DNA of 64,000 bases from Mucilaginibacter sp. PAMB04168 (GTDB taxonomy: Bacteria; Bacteroidota; Bacteroidia; Sphingobacteriales; Sphingobacteriaceae): contig NZ_CP155079.2 of the NCBI RefSeq assembly GCF_039634365.2, forward strand, positions 4,774,001 to 4,838,000, written 5' to 3'. The position numbers were made by a program, and so were the translations under genes. Below, piece after piece: positions 1 through 5,036 of this stretch (its first letter is position 1; each line of letters begins with the position of its first letter). Under the pieces are notes generated by a model. It was not told the DNA's origin and ran no database searches. It worked only from the letters and a program-made list of their open reading frames with translations.

Positions 1-304
1 ACTCGATCATAGATCGTGAGTTTTTAACCACGGAGAATGCACCCATATATTTCAGAAAGAACACCTTGCGTACGGTGTCTTCCAGTATCATAATGTGAAA
101 TTTTTTCCGGAGCAGTTTATGATTGAGCCAGTATAATAAAAACCCATCCCACCAACCAAAATGATTAGCCAGCAGCAGTACCGATTTATGCTGATCGATC
201 TGGATACTGTTAAAATTAAAGTCCTGAAAATTACTGTGCAGAATATACCCGATATACCGATGAAAGAAGGCACGTATGAAACTATTGTTTTTGGGGTAAA
301 TCAT
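1..304 (-). CDS. PlsC-type acyltransferase, partial (C-terminus cut by window edge)
   Basis: The first 101 residues of a lysophospholipid acyltransferase-like protein are present, starting at the ATG at 302-304 and running off the left edge. The segment NHFGWWDGF carries the HX4D catalytic box of the PlsC/GPAT superfamily, which transfers acyl chains from acyl-CoA or acyl-ACP to a hydroxyl. It is the last visible gene of a minus-strand series, 61 bp after a second acyltransferase whose box reads NHFSWWDGF, so the two look like tandem paralogues. With a CrtD-type desaturase upstream, the acceptor could be a carotenoid glycoside as well as a glycerolipid; that is inference. No other reading of this stretch competes. 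Confidence 0.82.
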   Translation of the reverse strand, partial: MIYPKNNSFIRAFFHRYIGYILHSNFQDFNFNSIQIDQHKSVLLLANHFGWWDGFLLYWLNHKLLRKKFHIMILEDTVRKVFFLKYMGAFSVVKNSRSMIE

Positions 305-365
305 GGCATGGGCAAGATAGCAATTCTGTTGTTGTGATTACAACGTGTTAATTACCTACAGCGGT

Positions 366-989
366 CTAATGCTCTACATTTATTTGATTTTGTAACGCCT
401 GTTTATGAAAGCCGTTGATATTTTCGGCCAACTGATCAAACGAAACATCTCCTGCCACACCGCAATCAAACAAGTGGATGAATGCAGAGGGTTTCAGGCT
501 TTCAAAGTAATCTATCAACACGCATGAATATACAATTTGGCAAGGGCCTTTAATGTGTTTTATAAGACGTTCAATACCTTTCTCAATAACAATACCTGTT
601 GCATGGTTAGACACCAACTCGCCCTGTGGGAAAACCACCACCAGGTTTTCGGGATCGTTTAGCAAGTCGGCCGCGTAATGCAGTGATTTGAGCATTTCGC
701 GCGTACCTTTTTCAATAGAAAAGCCGCCGAACAGGTTAAACAACATGCGCTGCTGCAAATGGTCATGCTGCATCATGATGTACAGCTTACGTTTTAGGTG
801 CCAGTAAGCAAGGTAATTACCAAAAAAACCATCCCACCAGCTAAAGTGATTACATAACAGCAAAACGGAATGGCCGGGCTTTGGCTCAAACGGCATCACT
901 ACAATGCGGTTAAATGCCTTATGCATACGGTAGCGCATGTACTTGGCAAACCAGTTGCTGAATAATTTATTACGGCGGGCGGGTATCAT
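366..989 (-). CDS. PlsC-type lysophospholipid acyltransferase family protein
   Basis: This 207-residue protein has the HX4D motif in NHFSWWDGF (His48, Asp53), a GTR segment in IEKGTREML near residue 95, and VVFPQGE, which corresponds to the FPEG acyl-acceptor motif. These are acyltransferase blocks I to III in the usual order, and the length is normal for a soluble or peripheral PlsC homologue. Its ATG overlaps the TGA of the upstream alpha/beta hydrolase (ATGA, 986-989), so the two are translationally coupled. The paralogue at 1-304 follows. It may acylate glycerolipids or, given crtD in the same series, a carotenoid glycoside; the sequence does not decide. Confidence 0.82.
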   Translation of the reverse strand: MIPARRNKLFSNWFAKYMRYRMHKAFNRIVVMPFEPKPGHSVLLLCNHFSWWDGFFGNYLAYWHLKRKLYIMMQHDHLQQRMLFNLFGGFSIEKGTREMLKSLHYAADLLNDPENLVVVFPQGELVSNHATGIVIEKGIERLIKHIKGPCQIVYSCVLIDYFESLKPSAFIHLFDCGVAGDVSFDQLAENINGFHKQALQNQINVEH

Positions 990-1807
990 ATTTTACAATT
1001 TACCAAATATTCATCTAACTGGGTGGTAACCAGCCAGTGCCCCATCGGCACTTCATGCACCTGTGGATACTTGAGCCGGTTAATAAATGCCTGGGCAGAG
1101 CTTTTAGGAAACAGCATATCATGCTGCCCAAAAACCAGATGGCACTTGATACCATGCTCGTTAATCCGGTTGGTTATCTTAACCACATCGGGCTGTAACT
1201 GTTTGATAAGATTTAAGGTATAGTATACATCCAACCGCTTTTGCGGCGTATCCATTTCACTGTAAGCTATCTTGTACAAGCTTTCGTCAATAAATTTTAC
1301 CTTTTTTAATCCGTTAAGCACACCTGGTGCCAGCCACTTACTTTTGGTTACCGTTTTAAACAACAACTTACCTGCGGGGTTGTGCATTAAAAAATTAAAG
1401 CCCTTATAAACCGATAAGCCATCGGGCGCCATGAGTATAATCTCGTCAACCCATTCGGCAAAATCTTCCAATAGTACCAGCGCCAAATTAGCGCCTATGG
1501 AGTACCCCATTAAACTTATGCGCTGCTGGCCACCATGTTGCTTAAACCACTCTTCGAGGTAGGCACGCATTAGCGATTTGGGCATGCCGTTGAGTATTTG
1601 CTGCTCAGCCCAATTGTTAAGCTGGGTTTGCCCATGAAAAAAGTGATCGAAACTGTATACCCGGTATTGGGTTAAGATAGATTTTTGCAGTACTTCAAAT
1701 TGTCGCCCCGTCATGCCGTAGCCATGAAAAGCAAGCATGGGTTTACTGCCCGTACCGTATTCGTGATAATGAATTTGCCCTAACTGTGGTAGATGTAGAA
1801 AAGCCAT
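986..1807 (-). CDS. alpha/beta hydrolase
   Basis: An alpha/beta-hydrolase fold protein of about 273 residues. LAFHGYGMTG forms the oxyanion-loop region, GYSIG is the nucleophile elbow with the catalytic Ser, FGQHDMLFP supplies the Asp, and GHWLV near the C-terminus supplies the His. The open frame continues upstream to 1900, but a TAnnTTTG promoter box lies at 1857-1864 inside that extension and the first residues of the extension look unlike the family. I therefore place the start at the ATG at 1805-1807. The stop overlaps the ATG of the acyltransferase downstream. Substrate unknown; an esterase or lipase role in the same lipid or carotenoid pathway is inferred from the neighbours only. Confidence 0.82.
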   Translation of the reverse strand: MAFLHLPQLGQIHYHEYGTGSKPMLAFHGYGMTGRQFEVLQKSILTQYRVYSFDHFFHGQTQLNNWAEQQILNGMPKSLMRAYLEEWFKQHGGQQRISLMGYSIGANLALVLLEDFAEWVDEIILMAPDGLSVYKGFNFLMHNPAGKLLFKTVTKSKWLAPGVLNGLKKVKFIDESLYKIAYSEMDTPQKRLDVYYTLNLIKQLQPDVVKITNRINEHGIKCHLVFGQHDMLFPKSSAQAFINRLKYPQVHEVPMGHWLVTTQLDEYLVNCKI

Positions 1808-1856
1808 TGTTAAGGCAATGTTAGGGAATTTTTGTGAGTCTGGAAGTTTGTAAGTC

Positions 1857-1864
1857 CAAAAGTA
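1857..1864 (-). promoter_or_regulatory. TAnnTTTG -7 promoter box for the alpha/beta hydrolase
   Basis: The minus strand reads TACTTTTG here, matching the Bacteroidota -7 consensus TAnnTTTG. It lies about 50 nt upstream of the preferred hydrolase start at 1807 and downstream of the crtD stop. It would be an internal promoter of the series. No clear -33 TTG is seen. Confidence 0.4.
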
Positions 1865-1921
1865 CAAATTGAAACTATAGACAGGTGTGTTCAGTTTCAC
1901 CCACTTCTCATACCCTCTAAC

Positions 1922-3394
1922 TTACTCCACCCACTCACTTACAATTTTGGCCGATAGCAGCGCCAGTGGAATGCCGCCGCCGGGGTGAACACTGCCACCG
2001 CAGAAATACAGATTATTAATTTTAGACGAGCGGTTGGCATGCCGCAAAAAAGCAGCAAACTGGCTGTTAGAGCTGGTACCGTATAAAGAACCCTGGTAAG
2101 AAGACGTCCTGCTTTCTATGCTGCGCGGATCGAGTATACTTTCGTTTACGATACATGGGGTTATGTCCTCTCCTAACTGTGCAGATAACTTAAGGATAAT
2201 GTTTTTCCGGGCATCGCTAATCAGGCTATCCCAATCCTGCCCGGTGTTGGCCGGTACATTAATCATCACAAACCAGTTTTCGCAGCCTGCGGGGGCGTCA
2301 GCCGGTTCATATTTATTACTGATGTTAAGATAAACGGTGGGATTATTATAAATGCTTTGCTGCTTCCAAATGGCATTAAATTCCGCCTCGTAATTATCGC
2401 TAAAGAAAATATTATGGAGATCCAATTGAGGAAATTGTTTTTGTATACCCCAATAGAAAATGAGTGCTGAGCTGCTTCGTTCCTGATTCAGTATCCTCTC
2501 CGGAAAAAGCTGCGGGTACCTGGCCAACAGCTTGCGATAGGTAAACCATACATCCATGTTAGATACCACCAAATCGCCCTTTACCAGATCACCTTTAACC
2601 TGTAAACCCTTGGCGCGGCTACCGTTCAATACAATTTCATCAACTGGTGCTTGATAATTGAAAACTACTCCTAAATCTTCTGCCAGTTTAACCAGGCTAC
2701 GGGTTATATTGTACATGCCCCCATCAGGAAAGTAAGCACCATAGTGCTGCTCTAAATGAGGTATTACATTAAGTGTGGCAGGCGCACGATAAGGGTTTGA
2801 ACCATTATAAGTGGCATAACGATCAAAAAACTGCACCATGCGCTTGTCTCTAAAAAAGCCTGCGTTTGCCCTGTGCATGCTCCTAAAAGCATCTATCTGA
2901 AACAAACGTAGTATAGATTGTACCGTACGCCGGTTAAGGTATGTTTTAAGCCGGTGTAATGACTGCTCTAAAAAAACATGATTGGTGATAGCATAAATTT
3001 GGCTGCTGTTATGCGCATACTTTTGCAGGGCCTGTGCCGGCTCACCCGTTTTATGGTTAACCTCCGCGGCCATTTTTTCGGCATCTGCATAAGCGTCAAT
3101 ACTGATGCCGTCGGGATAAAAATAACGGCAAACAACATCCAGCTTTCGGTAATTAAAATACTGCCTGGGGTCTTTGCCTGCCAGTGTAAACAATTCATCC
3201 ACGTACTGCGGCATAGTGAATAAACTTGGACCGGCGTCGAAGCGATACCCCTCCTGCTCAAATTCAGACAGCTTTCCGCCTGCGTAGCCGTTGGCCTCGT
3301 ATACTTCGATAGTATAACCCTTTACAGCTAACCTAATGGCGGTGGCTATACCGGCTATACCGGCACCAATAATAAGCGCTTTTTTTTGGGGCAT
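1922..3394 (-). CDS. crtD: 1-hydroxycarotenoid 3,4-desaturase (CrtD-type) / CrtI family
   Basis: An FAD-dependent carotenoid desaturase of about 490 residues. The N-terminus has the Rossmann dinucleotide motif GAGIAGIATAIRLA followed by YEANGYAGGKLSEF and FDAGPSLFTMP. The middle has FFDRYATYNGSNPYRAPAT and the C-terminus CGGSVHPGGGIPLAL, the FAD-binding end of this family. The FDAGPSLFTMP and RYATYNGS blocks fit the CrtD branch better than phytoene desaturase CrtI, whose equivalent segment usually reads GPSWYWMP. It would introduce a 3,4 double bond into a hydroxylated acyclic carotenoid at the membrane. The start is the ATG at 3392-3394, because the upstream in-frame TTG is part of a TAnnTTTG box. 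First gene of the series that continues with the hydrolase and acyltransferases. Confidence 0.78.
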   Translation of the reverse strand: MPQKKALIIGAGIAGIATAIRLAVKGYTIEVYEANGYAGGKLSEFEQEGYRFDAGPSLFTMPQYVDELFTLAGKDPRQYFNYRKLDVVCRYFYPDGISIDAYADAEKMAAEVNHKTGEPAQALQKYAHNSSQIYAITNHVFLEQSLHRLKTYLNRRTVQSILRLFQIDAFRSMHRANAGFFRDKRMVQFFDRYATYNGSNPYRAPATLNVIPHLEQHYGAYFPDGGMYNITRSLVKLAEDLGVVFNYQAPVDEIVLNGSRAKGLQVKGDLVKGDLVVSNMDVWFTYRKLLARYPQLFPERILNQERSSSALIFYWGIQKQFPQLDLHNIFFSDNYEAEFNAIWKQQSIYNNPTVYLNISNKYEPADAPAGCENWFVMINVPANTGQDWDSLISDARKNIILKLSAQLGEDITPCIVNESILDPRSIESRTSSYQGSLYGTSSNSQFAAFLRHANRSSKINNLYFCGGSVHPGGGIPLALLSAKIVSEWVE

Positions 3395-3397
3395 GGG

Positions 3398-3405
3398 CAA
3401 ATATA
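3398..3405 (-). promoter_or_regulatory. TAnnTTTG -7 promoter box for crtD
   Basis: The minus strand reads TATATTTG, three bases before the crtD ATG. Transcription from it would give a leaderless or almost leaderless message. It sits just downstream of the terminator of the PfpI-type gene, the right place for a fresh promoter. Confidence 0.4.
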
Positions 3406-3420
3406 AACTACAAGCAATAA

Positions 3421-3451
3421 AAAAGCAGAACCGTTATTGTTCTGCCTTTTT
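3421..3451 (-). terminator. Rho-independent terminator after the PfpI/DJ-1 gene
   Basis: GCAGAAC (3425-3431) pairs with GTTCTGC (3439-3445) around a 7-nt loop. A-runs on the left and T-runs on the right make it work in either direction. On the minus strand it ends the PfpI-type gene before crtD begins. Confidence 0.7.
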
Positions 3452-3473
3452 ATTTTCTATTATGATTAGTTAT

Positions 3474-4031
3474 TTATTCAGATGCATCATGCACACCTTC
3501 GGCAATCTCTTCAATAGTTTTGCGGTTAAACGCATCAAGGTCGGCCGGGGTACGGCTGGTTACCAGACCCTTGTCGGTCACTACTTCTTCGTCAACCCAT
3601 TCGGCTCCGGCATTCTTTAGGTCGGTTTGCAAGGATGGGTAAGAAGTGAGTTTGCGCCCGCTGATCATGCCCGTCTCAATAAGCATTTGCGGACCATGGC
3701 ATATAGCAGCCAACGGTTTACCTTCATCTAAAAACGCCGATACGAAAGCCACTGCATCTTTATTTTGGCGCAGCTTATCCGGGTTCAAAACCCCACCCGG
3801 CAATACCAGGGCATCATAATCATCCGGGCTCACATCACTGAGCATTCTGTCCACATCCACTTCAATGCCCCAATGGTCATGGTCCCAGGCTTTAATTTTT
3901 CCGCCTTGTGGCGATATAATATGCACAATGGCGCCAGCTGCCTCCAAAGCTTCTTTGGGGCTGGTTAGCTCTACCTGCTCAAACCCTTCTTCGGTAAGGA
4001 TTGCTACTTTACGGTTATCTAAACTCGGCAT
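3474..4031 (-). CDS. DJ-1/PfpI family protein (type 1 glutamine amidotransferase fold)
   Basis: A 185-residue single-domain protein. It opens with KVAILTEEGFEQVELTSP, and AAICHGPQML near residue 110 carries the nucleophile-elbow Cys-His pair of the PfpI/YhbO subgroup. ALVLPGG and LTSYPSLQTDL, typical of the fold, are also present, and the length is normal for the group. Members have been described as proteases, chaperones or glyoxal-detoxifying deglycases; which applies here cannot be told. It is cytoplasmic, with no signal peptide. It lies 82 bp downstream of the LysR gene on the same strand and is followed by its own terminator. Confidence 0.88.
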   Translation of the reverse strand: MPSLDNRKVAILTEEGFEQVELTSPKEALEAAGAIVHIISPQGGKIKAWDHDHWGIEVDVDRMLSDVSPDDYDALVLPGGVLNPDKLRQNKDAVAFVSAFLDEGKPLAAICHGPQMLIETGMISGRKLTSYPSLQTDLKNAGAEWVDEEVVTDKGLVTSRTPADLDAFNRKTIEEIAEGVHDASE

Positions 4032-4113
4032 AACGTTGTTTCATTTTCATGCAACTTACATAAGCTGCATAAGTACTACAATAGGCCAAATTTTAAGTTT
4101 TCAATATTTGGAT

Positions 4114-5007
4114 TTACTGGTTTTCCAGTGCATAATTGATAAAATTACTGGTAAGTCCGTTATCTTCGGTTCCTTTACGCCTGATGAAGTAAAAGTTCCG
4201 GGTAATCTCCAAACCCTCCACAGGCACCTCAACTAAATCGCCTTCGGCCAGTTGCCGTACAATAGAGGGCCGTGGCATAAAGCCCAGGCACTGATCGGCC
4301 AGTAAGAAATTCTTCAAAGCTTCCGTACCGCCTAATCTTATCTTCACCGCTAGCTCGGCCGGTTTAATGTGATGTGCGGCCAGCGCTTTCAATAAGGCAT
4401 TTAAAGTACCAGAGCCACGCTCACGCAAAGCCAGGGGCGTTTTTACAAACTGTTTTAGTGTTAAGGATTTACCGGCCAGCGAACTTTTGGCCGAACAAAC
4501 CGGTATTACCTCGTCGCTCATAAAGGGCTGGTAGGTAACGTTGGTAAGTTTGTTGTCTACCTCAATAATACCCACATCCACTTCATGGTTAAGCAGGGCG
4601 TTTAAAATATACTCTGAGTTACGATTAACCAGCTGTACGCCAACATTGGCATAACGCCGCTGAAAACCCGACAAGATAGATGGCAAGATATACAACGCAA
4701 TAGTAGTACTGGCTCCTAAACGCAAATGCCCTGCCGCCTGCGACTGGTTGCTGAGCACCGACAGATCATATTCCACCTTACGTTCAATCTCGGTAGCCTG
4801 CAATAAGTATTCATTCAATTTGGTTCCGGCTTCGGTGAGCATGATGCTGTTACCCTTACGTTCAAACAAGGGCAGCTTATATTGATCTTCAAGCGCTTTT
4901 ATATGCTTGCTTATTGCAGGCTGGGTAATAAATAGCACTTGAGCTGCTTTTGAGAAACTTAAATTGGCAGCAACTTCTATAAAAACACGGTGACCAAAGG
5001 ATATCAT
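4114..5007 (-). CDS. LysR family transcriptional regulator
   Basis: About 297 residues. The N-terminal winged helix-turn-helix is clear in FIEVAANLSFSKAAQVLFITQPAISKHIKALE, followed by the linker helix and a periplasmic-binding-protein-like effector domain from about residue 85. The frame stays open to 5031 only through a TTG that belongs to a TAnnTTTG box, so the ATG at 5005-5007 is the better start. It is divergent from the GT87 gene at 5138 and lies upstream of the PfpI-type gene; either could be a target. The effector is unknown. Confidence 0.9.
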   Translation of the reverse strand: MISFGHRVFIEVAANLSFSKAAQVLFITQPAISKHIKALEDQYKLPLFERKGNSIMLTEAGTKLNEYLLQATEIERKVEYDLSVLSNQSQAAGHLRLGASTTIALYILPSILSGFQRRYANVGVQLVNRNSEYILNALLNHEVDVGIIEVDNKLTNVTYQPFMSDEVIPVCSAKSSLAGKSLTLKQFVKTPLALRERGSGTLNALLKALAAHHIKPAELAVKIRLGGTEALKNFLLADQCLGFMPRPSIVRQLAEGDLVEVPVEGLEITRNFYFIRRKGTEDNGLTSNFINYALENQ

Positions 5008-5028
5008 GTCGGGATAATGATGTAGGTT

Positions 5029-5036
5029 CAAAAGTA
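5029..5036 (-). promoter_or_regulatory. TAnnTTTG promoter box for the LysR gene
   Basis: The minus strand reads TACTTTTG, with a TTG 17 nt upstream as a possible -33 element. The predicted leader to the ATG at 5007 is about 20 nt. The box lies inside the longest open frame and so argues for the shorter protein. Confidence 0.5.

Follow-up and report, generated by a model that had tools for sequence, protein, structure and literature searches.

A few bacteria are known to make acylated carotenoid glycosides, and genes for this have been named in Chlorobaculum, Salinibacter, and Rhodothermus. CrtC, CruC, and CruD make OH-gamma-carotene glucoside laurate, and in Chlorobaculum tepidum, where the product is OH-chlorobactene glucoside laurate, separate enzymes perform the hydration, glycosylation, and acylation of the psi end of a monocyclic carotenoid (PMC6166724). 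Acyl glycosides and homologs of CruC and CruD are also reported for Rhodothermus (PMC5822342), and the salinixanthin genes of Salinibacter ruber and Rhodothermus marinus (CruF, CruC, and CruD) are described as leading to a carotenoid acyl glycoside (PMC5822342, PMC2615216). The locus considered here belongs to a Mucilaginibacter (Sphingobacteriaceae) with a genome of 5.4 Mb and lies at the left edge of a 64-kb stretch of DNA, hereafter the window (G000:C1:4774001-4838000). It encodes, consecutively and all on the minus strand, the desaturase CrtD, an alpha/beta hydrolase (ABH), and two PlsC-fold acyltransferases (AT1 and AT2). Beyond the window edge, from C1:4773681 down to 4770116, genes follow for a glycosyltransferase of family 2 (GT2), the carotenoid hydratase CruF, IspH, and a CrtW-like ketolase.

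The first four genes had been named in a preliminary description of the window, and their identities are borne out by matches to NF042421, Abhydrolase_1, and PF01553. That description had also singled out the left flank as the place where a glycosyltransferase, crtB/crtI, or a hydratase should be sought, as opposed to glycerolipid genes only. GT2, CruF, IspH, and the CrtW-like gene are found there, and crtI and crtB lie about 3.9 Mb from the operon in the same genome, as do a PF18916 lycopene cyclase and a CrtZ-like hydroxylase.

The locus shares with C. tepidum the use of separate enzymes for the three steps. However, the hydratase is CrtC there and CruF here, and the genes here form one operon that additionally holds ABH and a second acyltransferase. 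The likeness of AT2 to CruD rests on fold, HX4D motif, and gene linkage. In R. marinus, unlike here, cruC lies away from the cluster, and the parts of the literature at hand describe no ABH–AT1 pair; in Thermomicrobium, the acyltransferase is reportedly fused to the hydratase, which is not the case here. The flexixanthin pathway of Algoriphagus has the same aglycone gene set, except for crtE, which was not searched for here. As set out in the main text of that source, in which no word starting with “acyl” occurs, it differs in having no glycosyltransferase or acyltransferase step (PMC10784355). Among the titles and abstract openings listed, a scope that leaves most subscription papers outside, no description of the operon in Mucilaginibacter, Pedobacter, or Daejeonella was found. 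The kind of system is known; within that literature, the recurring operon and its ABH–AT1 variant are undescribed.

The AT2–GT2–CruF module and its proposed pathway

The operon is probably devoted to tailoring the psi end of a carotenoid, with an acylated glycoside of a flexixanthin-type carotenoid as its likely product. The individual reactions and acceptors are read from gene context, and the product is proposed by analogy. CruF would hydrate the substrate to give the 1′-hydroxyl, CrtD would desaturate it at 3′,4′, and the CrtW-like ketolase and the distant CrtZ-like hydroxylase may modify the ring. GT2 would add a sugar to the psi end, and AT2 would esterify this sugar with a fatty acid.

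Family membership, gene content, gene order, and co-occurrence were obtained by computation. CrtD scores 612.5 bits against NF042421 (cut-off 500) and is a member of that family. CruF, with 88.1 bits against PF04240 (cut-off 25), belongs to the carotenoid 1,2-hydratases and stays below the models of the archaeal bisanhydrobacterioruberin hydratases (69.3 versus 154.7 bits for TIGR03460; 43 versus 300 bits for NF041333). IspH reaches 225.2 bits with TIGR00216 (cut-off 187.85), and GT2 matches PF00535 with 93.6 bits. In relatives, the GT2 domain adjoins or overlaps CruF, which places it with the CruC/CruG-like glycosyltransferases, although GT2 also occurs without CruF. Gene context is the sole basis on which GT2 is taken to work like CruC/CruG.

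Both acyltransferases carry PF01553 (43 bits for AT1 and 36.6 bits for AT2; cut-off 23). AT2 remains far under the LPAAT model TIGR00530 (21.7 versus 102.95 bits), and AT1 has no match to it at E ≤ 0.001. The PlsC fold, the HX4D motif, and the linkage to a carotenoid hydratase and a glycosyltransferase place AT2 with the CruD-type enzymes; AT1 is placed there by operon membership only. The catalytic boxes had been called near-identical, which they are (NHFSWWDGF in AT1, NHFGWWDGF in AT2), but the proteins are not near-copies: only about one third of their residues are identical, and they fall into separate, well-supported clades (100/99 for AT2, 99/96 for AT1), by which a recent tandem duplication is ruled out. 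The Asn-His pair, the Asp of HX4D, and the Pro-Gln of block III are invariant in all 23 aligned members; the shared NHxxWWD box is therefore a family trait. Block III reads [FY]PQ, and FPEG occupies the aligned place in the Thermotoga PlsC (5KYM). Filing the proteins as ordinary PlsC is excluded by both the TIGR00530 scores and this third motif.

Conservation was assessed at three levels. In a table of 37 Mucilaginibacter genomes, compiled by hand from matches and synteny and including five that are less than 90% complete (G006, 88; G009, 58; G012, 83; G015, 71; G018, 61), 30 have AT2 together with CruF, and the remaining seven have neither. CrtD orthologs follow the same division (28/30 and 0/7), as do matches to phytoene synthase (29/30 and 2/7). 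In the family, GT2 matches at E ≤ 1.5e-53 occur in 91 genomes, 27 of which were not fetched. Among 60 further GT2 regions, 47 have AT2, 47 have CruF, and 46 have both; the two genes co-occur in 11 of the 14 genera covered, and the discordant regions are L108 (AT2 without CruF) and L120 (CruF without AT2). A set of 80 named loci, the best 80 of 417 confirmed matches by similarity to AT2, shows GT2 following AT2 in every case and CruF in 72, the commonest order being CrtD-AT2-GT2-CruF-IspH-CrtW (18/80; Pedobacter, Daejeonella, and metagenome-assembled genomes). Four of the eight loci lacking CruF end at or inside GT2 (L176, L178, L217, and L232).

At the level of the phylum, 392 genomes were surveyed, with match positions and genome labels entered by hand and a strong acyltransferase match defined by E ≤ 1e-35. 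CruF is present in 112 of them. Outside Sphingobacteriaceae, 30 genomes from nine families have a strong match, and 29 of these have CruF, within 5 kb in 23. Seven loci from other families (L244, L245, L246, L251, L252, L253, and L263) hold a single cluster of the order desaturase-crtB-cyclase-crtD-acyltransferase-GT2-CruF-crtW, and a further locus (L144), from a different family within the host's class, has crtI-crtB-cyclase-crtD-acyltransferase-GT2-CruF. In clusters of the former kind, the first desaturase scores best as a CrtD-type enzyme (268-285 bits); it is read here as crtI from its place beside crtB. In six other loci (L257, L258, L259, L260, L273, and L274), CruF was observed inside long frames of 620-924 aa with a weak CrtB-like stretch (20-44 bits), which suggests hydratase fusions in other members of the phylum.

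The ABH–AT1 pair

ABH and AT1 are closely coupled. The ATGA overlap noted in the preliminary description is real and joins the ABH stop to the AT1 start at 989-986; the other genes of the stretch are spaced by about 114 bp (CrtD-ABH) and 61 bp (AT1-AT2), with no further overlap. With start codons chosen by script, the 4-nt overlap is kept in 24 of 35 carotenoid-operon pairs and in 10/10 pairs of a second kind (see below), a recurrence that puts it beyond chance. The two genes occur together in 43 of the 80 named loci, where AT1 is never seen without ABH (0/80); ABH without AT1 is found at L174 in this set and also at L094. Operon-type AT1 was found only in genera g1 and g26, both Mucilaginibacter. 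It is present in 23 of the 37 genus genomes, always accompanied by AT2 (23/23). Of the two acyltransferases in the preliminary description, AT2 alone belongs to the widespread module; ABH–AT1 is a genus-level addition to the operon.

The second kind of pair, a diverged ABH′–AT1′, ends a fatty-acid-synthase-like cluster (L070:4828-10438) that also encodes a FabG-like reductase, a 197-aa protein, an 89-aa protein without Pfam match that resembles an acyl carrier protein (ACP) by eye, a ketosynthase (KS), a FabI-like reductase, and a phosphopantetheinyl transferase. The product of this cluster is perhaps an acyl lipid. The arrangement FabG-197aa-ACP-like-KS-FabI-AcpS-ABH′-AT1′ was also observed in L069, L071-L077, L268, and L269, and the cluster occurs not only in Mucilaginibacter but also in one or more further genera of the family (g37). 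In the tree, AT1′ forms a clade of its own (100/100) to which AT1 is sister (99/95).

This kinship speaks for the possibility, unlikely on balance yet the most probable of the alternatives, that AT2 acylates the carotenoid glycoside and ABH–AT1 serves a different lipid, sharing only the transcript and replacing the ABH′–AT1′ of the fatty-acid-synthase-like cluster. Orthologs of the cluster ketosynthase (E under 1e-200) are present in 10 of the 37 genomes, none of which has operon-type AT1, and four genomes have neither (Fisher 2.9e-6, without tree correction). Moreover, the divergence of AT1 is unlinked to that of GT2 (Spearman 0.08, 33 loci), perhaps a sign that AT1 has been exchanged between species. 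Pairwise-distance correlations among ABH, AT1, AT2, and GT2 give no clean pairing (0.41 for ABH-AT1 and 0.61 for ABH-GT2). However, AT1 occurs only where AT2 does, and since the ketosynthase is absent wherever AT1 is present, AT1 cannot act on the product of that cluster in the same cell.

It is also conceivable, though rather doubtful, that ABH is not a partner in acyl transfer and instead removes acyl groups from the pigment in turnover, with AT1 and AT2 both being forward enzymes. The presumed catalytic triad of Ser103, Asp230, and His257 is invariant in 21 aligned sequences. The AlphaFold model of ABH (predicted local distance difference test, pLDDT, 90) has matches among alpha/beta hydrolases in Foldseek that include gamma-lactamase, C-C hydrolases, polyhydroxybutyrate depolymerase, and esterases, and the two loci with ABH and no AT1 would fit such a role. 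In contrast, the single-acyltransferase operons of other genera that were examined show no ABH.

With respect to the carotenoid pathway, AT1 most likely would also acylate the glycolipid pigment, at a second position or with another type of chain, and ABH may trim or supply acyl groups, the latter assignment being a guess. A tentative and rather speculative extension is that the coupled pair, kin to that of the fatty-acid-synthase-like cluster, was built into an old carotenoid operon to provide a second or special acyl chain, giving a diacyl or edited carotenoid glycolipid, such that the pigment would itself be a membrane lipid.

The acceptors of GT2 and AT2

Several observations weigh against the assignment of GT2 and AT2 to carotenoids. 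GT2 is present in all 30 genus genomes with AT2 and CruF and also in six of the seven that lack AT2, CruF, and CrtD; a match to phytoene synthase is absent from five of the seven. When 92 GT2 sequences are placed in a tree, the 14 rows without AT2 and CruF require only three changes, nine of them lying in one clade, and the Fisher p of 9.7e-8 for the co-loss of AT2 and CruF in the genus is inflated for this reason. Four Mucilaginibacter loci (L182, L190, L197, and L200) extend past GT2 and have AT2 and GT2 with no CruF at the locus; at L190, IspH directly follows GT2. Unless CruF lies elsewhere in their genomes, these loci count against a strict tie between AT2 and CruF; they lower the standing of the carotenoid assignment and raise that of another lipid. 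Outside the family, only 16 of 152 weaker acyltransferase matches come from CruF-bearing genomes, and 60 of 105 CruF genomes have no acyltransferase match; the acyltransferase family as a whole therefore extends beyond carotenoids, and many pathways with CruF do without it. Two of the assigned proteins are also under the cut-offs of the dedicated models: GT2 for CruG (NF045692, 97.3 versus 600 bits) and the CrtW-like protein for NF045690 (223.2 versus 350 bits). The best equivalog matches of GT2 are HpnB (113 bits) and then CruG (97 bits), both under cut-off.

The fold of AT2 is equally ambiguous. Its model (pLDDT 88) has the PlsC/GPAT fold, and the first Foldseek match is PatA, described in the literature as the membrane-associated mycobacterial acyltransferase that acylates a sugar, the mannose of phosphatidylinositol mannoside (PIM). 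However, identity to PatA is only 13-15% and the TM-score 0.44-0.51, and VIA-align ranks PatA (Z 10.8, root-mean-square deviation [rmsd] 4.8, 174 aligned) behind GPAT1 (Z 15.8, rmsd 2.8, 204 aligned) and PlsC (Z 15.4, rmsd 3.2, 185 aligned). Because the two methods favor different enzymes, the fold leaves the acceptor undecided. A profile search of Protein Data Bank (PDB) sequences returned only 5KYM (E 0.51) and 7U37 (E 0.82).

GT2 as a carotenoid-only enzyme is not sustained by these data, as it is kept without CruF or AT2; its survival without the pathway indicates that it probably has a second, carotenoid-independent substrate, and AT2, too, perhaps has another substrate, given the loci where AT2-GT2 stands without adjoining CruF. 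Of note, GT2 was observed beside IspH at L138-L143, L089, L092, L093, L117, and L131-L133 although AT2 and CruF are gone, with one frame between GT2 and IspH at L093. The preliminary proposal of carotenoid acylation accordingly stands in that the AT2 family adjoins CruF and GT2 in other Bacteroidota, but the link, although strong, is not strict.

The alternative that AT2 and GT2, and AT1 as well, produce or alter a different lipid (a glycerolipid or glycolipid) and have only the operon in common with the carotenoid genes is quite improbable: membership in PF01553, the structural proximity to GPAT1 and PlsC, the persistence of GT2 without CruF (in some genomes without phytoene synthase), and the four loci without adjoining CruF speak for it, whereas the parallel distribution of AT2 and CruF in the genus (30/30 and 0/7), the place of the acyltransferase family inside whole crt clusters of other Bacteroidota families, the replacement of the FPEG of PlsC by PQ in 23/23 members, and the low TIGR00530 score speak against it.

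Coordinates, flanking features, and significance

Table 1. Features of the carotenoid operon and its upstream border (window positions unless preceded by the locus label L002).
Feature	Position	Strand	Remarks
CrtD, 1-hydroxycarotenoid 3,4-desaturase	1922..3394	(-)	ATG start; TTG at 3400 possible; NF042421
ABH, alpha/beta hydrolase, 273 aa	986..1807	(-)	ATG start; longer GTG form to 1900; Pfam Abhydrolase_1
AT1, PlsC-fold acyltransferase, 207 aa, NHFSWWD / FPQGEL	366..989	(-)	PF01553, alignment, tree
AT2, PlsC-fold acyltransferase, NHFGWWD / FPQARL	1..304	(-)	First 101 of 206 aa; window edge cuts gene
AT2, whole gene, 206 aa	L002:18684-19304	(-)	Rest left of window
GT2, family-2 glycosyltransferase	L002:17593-18681	(-)	Left of window
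CruF, carotenoid hydratase	L002:16964-17596	(-)	Left of window
IspH	L002:15883-16734	(-)	Left of window
CrtW-like ketolase	L002:15116-15817	(-)	Left of window
Terminator-like hairpin between PfpI gene and CrtD	3416..3454	(-)	Consensus scan; possible upstream border of unit

The scan that yielded the hairpin found nine terminator-like sites in 9 kb, no excess over the mean of 9.4 in shuffles, and 24 promoter-like sites versus 20.3. Upstream of CrtD, the window holds a PfpI/DJ-1 gene and a LysR regulator (3474-5031). Genes of these kinds precede CrtD on the same strand in 14 (PfpI) and 11 (LysR) of 48 CrtD loci, which makes a regulatory or stress link possible. At the distant crt genes, crtB is followed by a gene for a 181-aa protein (L007:11241-11786; C1 ~880,241-880,786) without Pfam match and, by eye, with a signal-peptide-like start. 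Homologs of about 180-230 aa are encoded in 14 crt clusters from further families of Bacteroidota, with crtB recognized beside 13 of them.

The NHxxWWD...[FY]PQ acyltransferase family may mark carotenoid acylation in many Bacteroidota, which would make the trait predictable from genome sequence. That GT2, and at some loci AT2, is kept without CruF hints at a possible second glycolipid. The ABH–AT1 pair constitutes a natural experiment, in which close relatives carry one or two acyltransferases, on what the second enzyme adds to the pigment.

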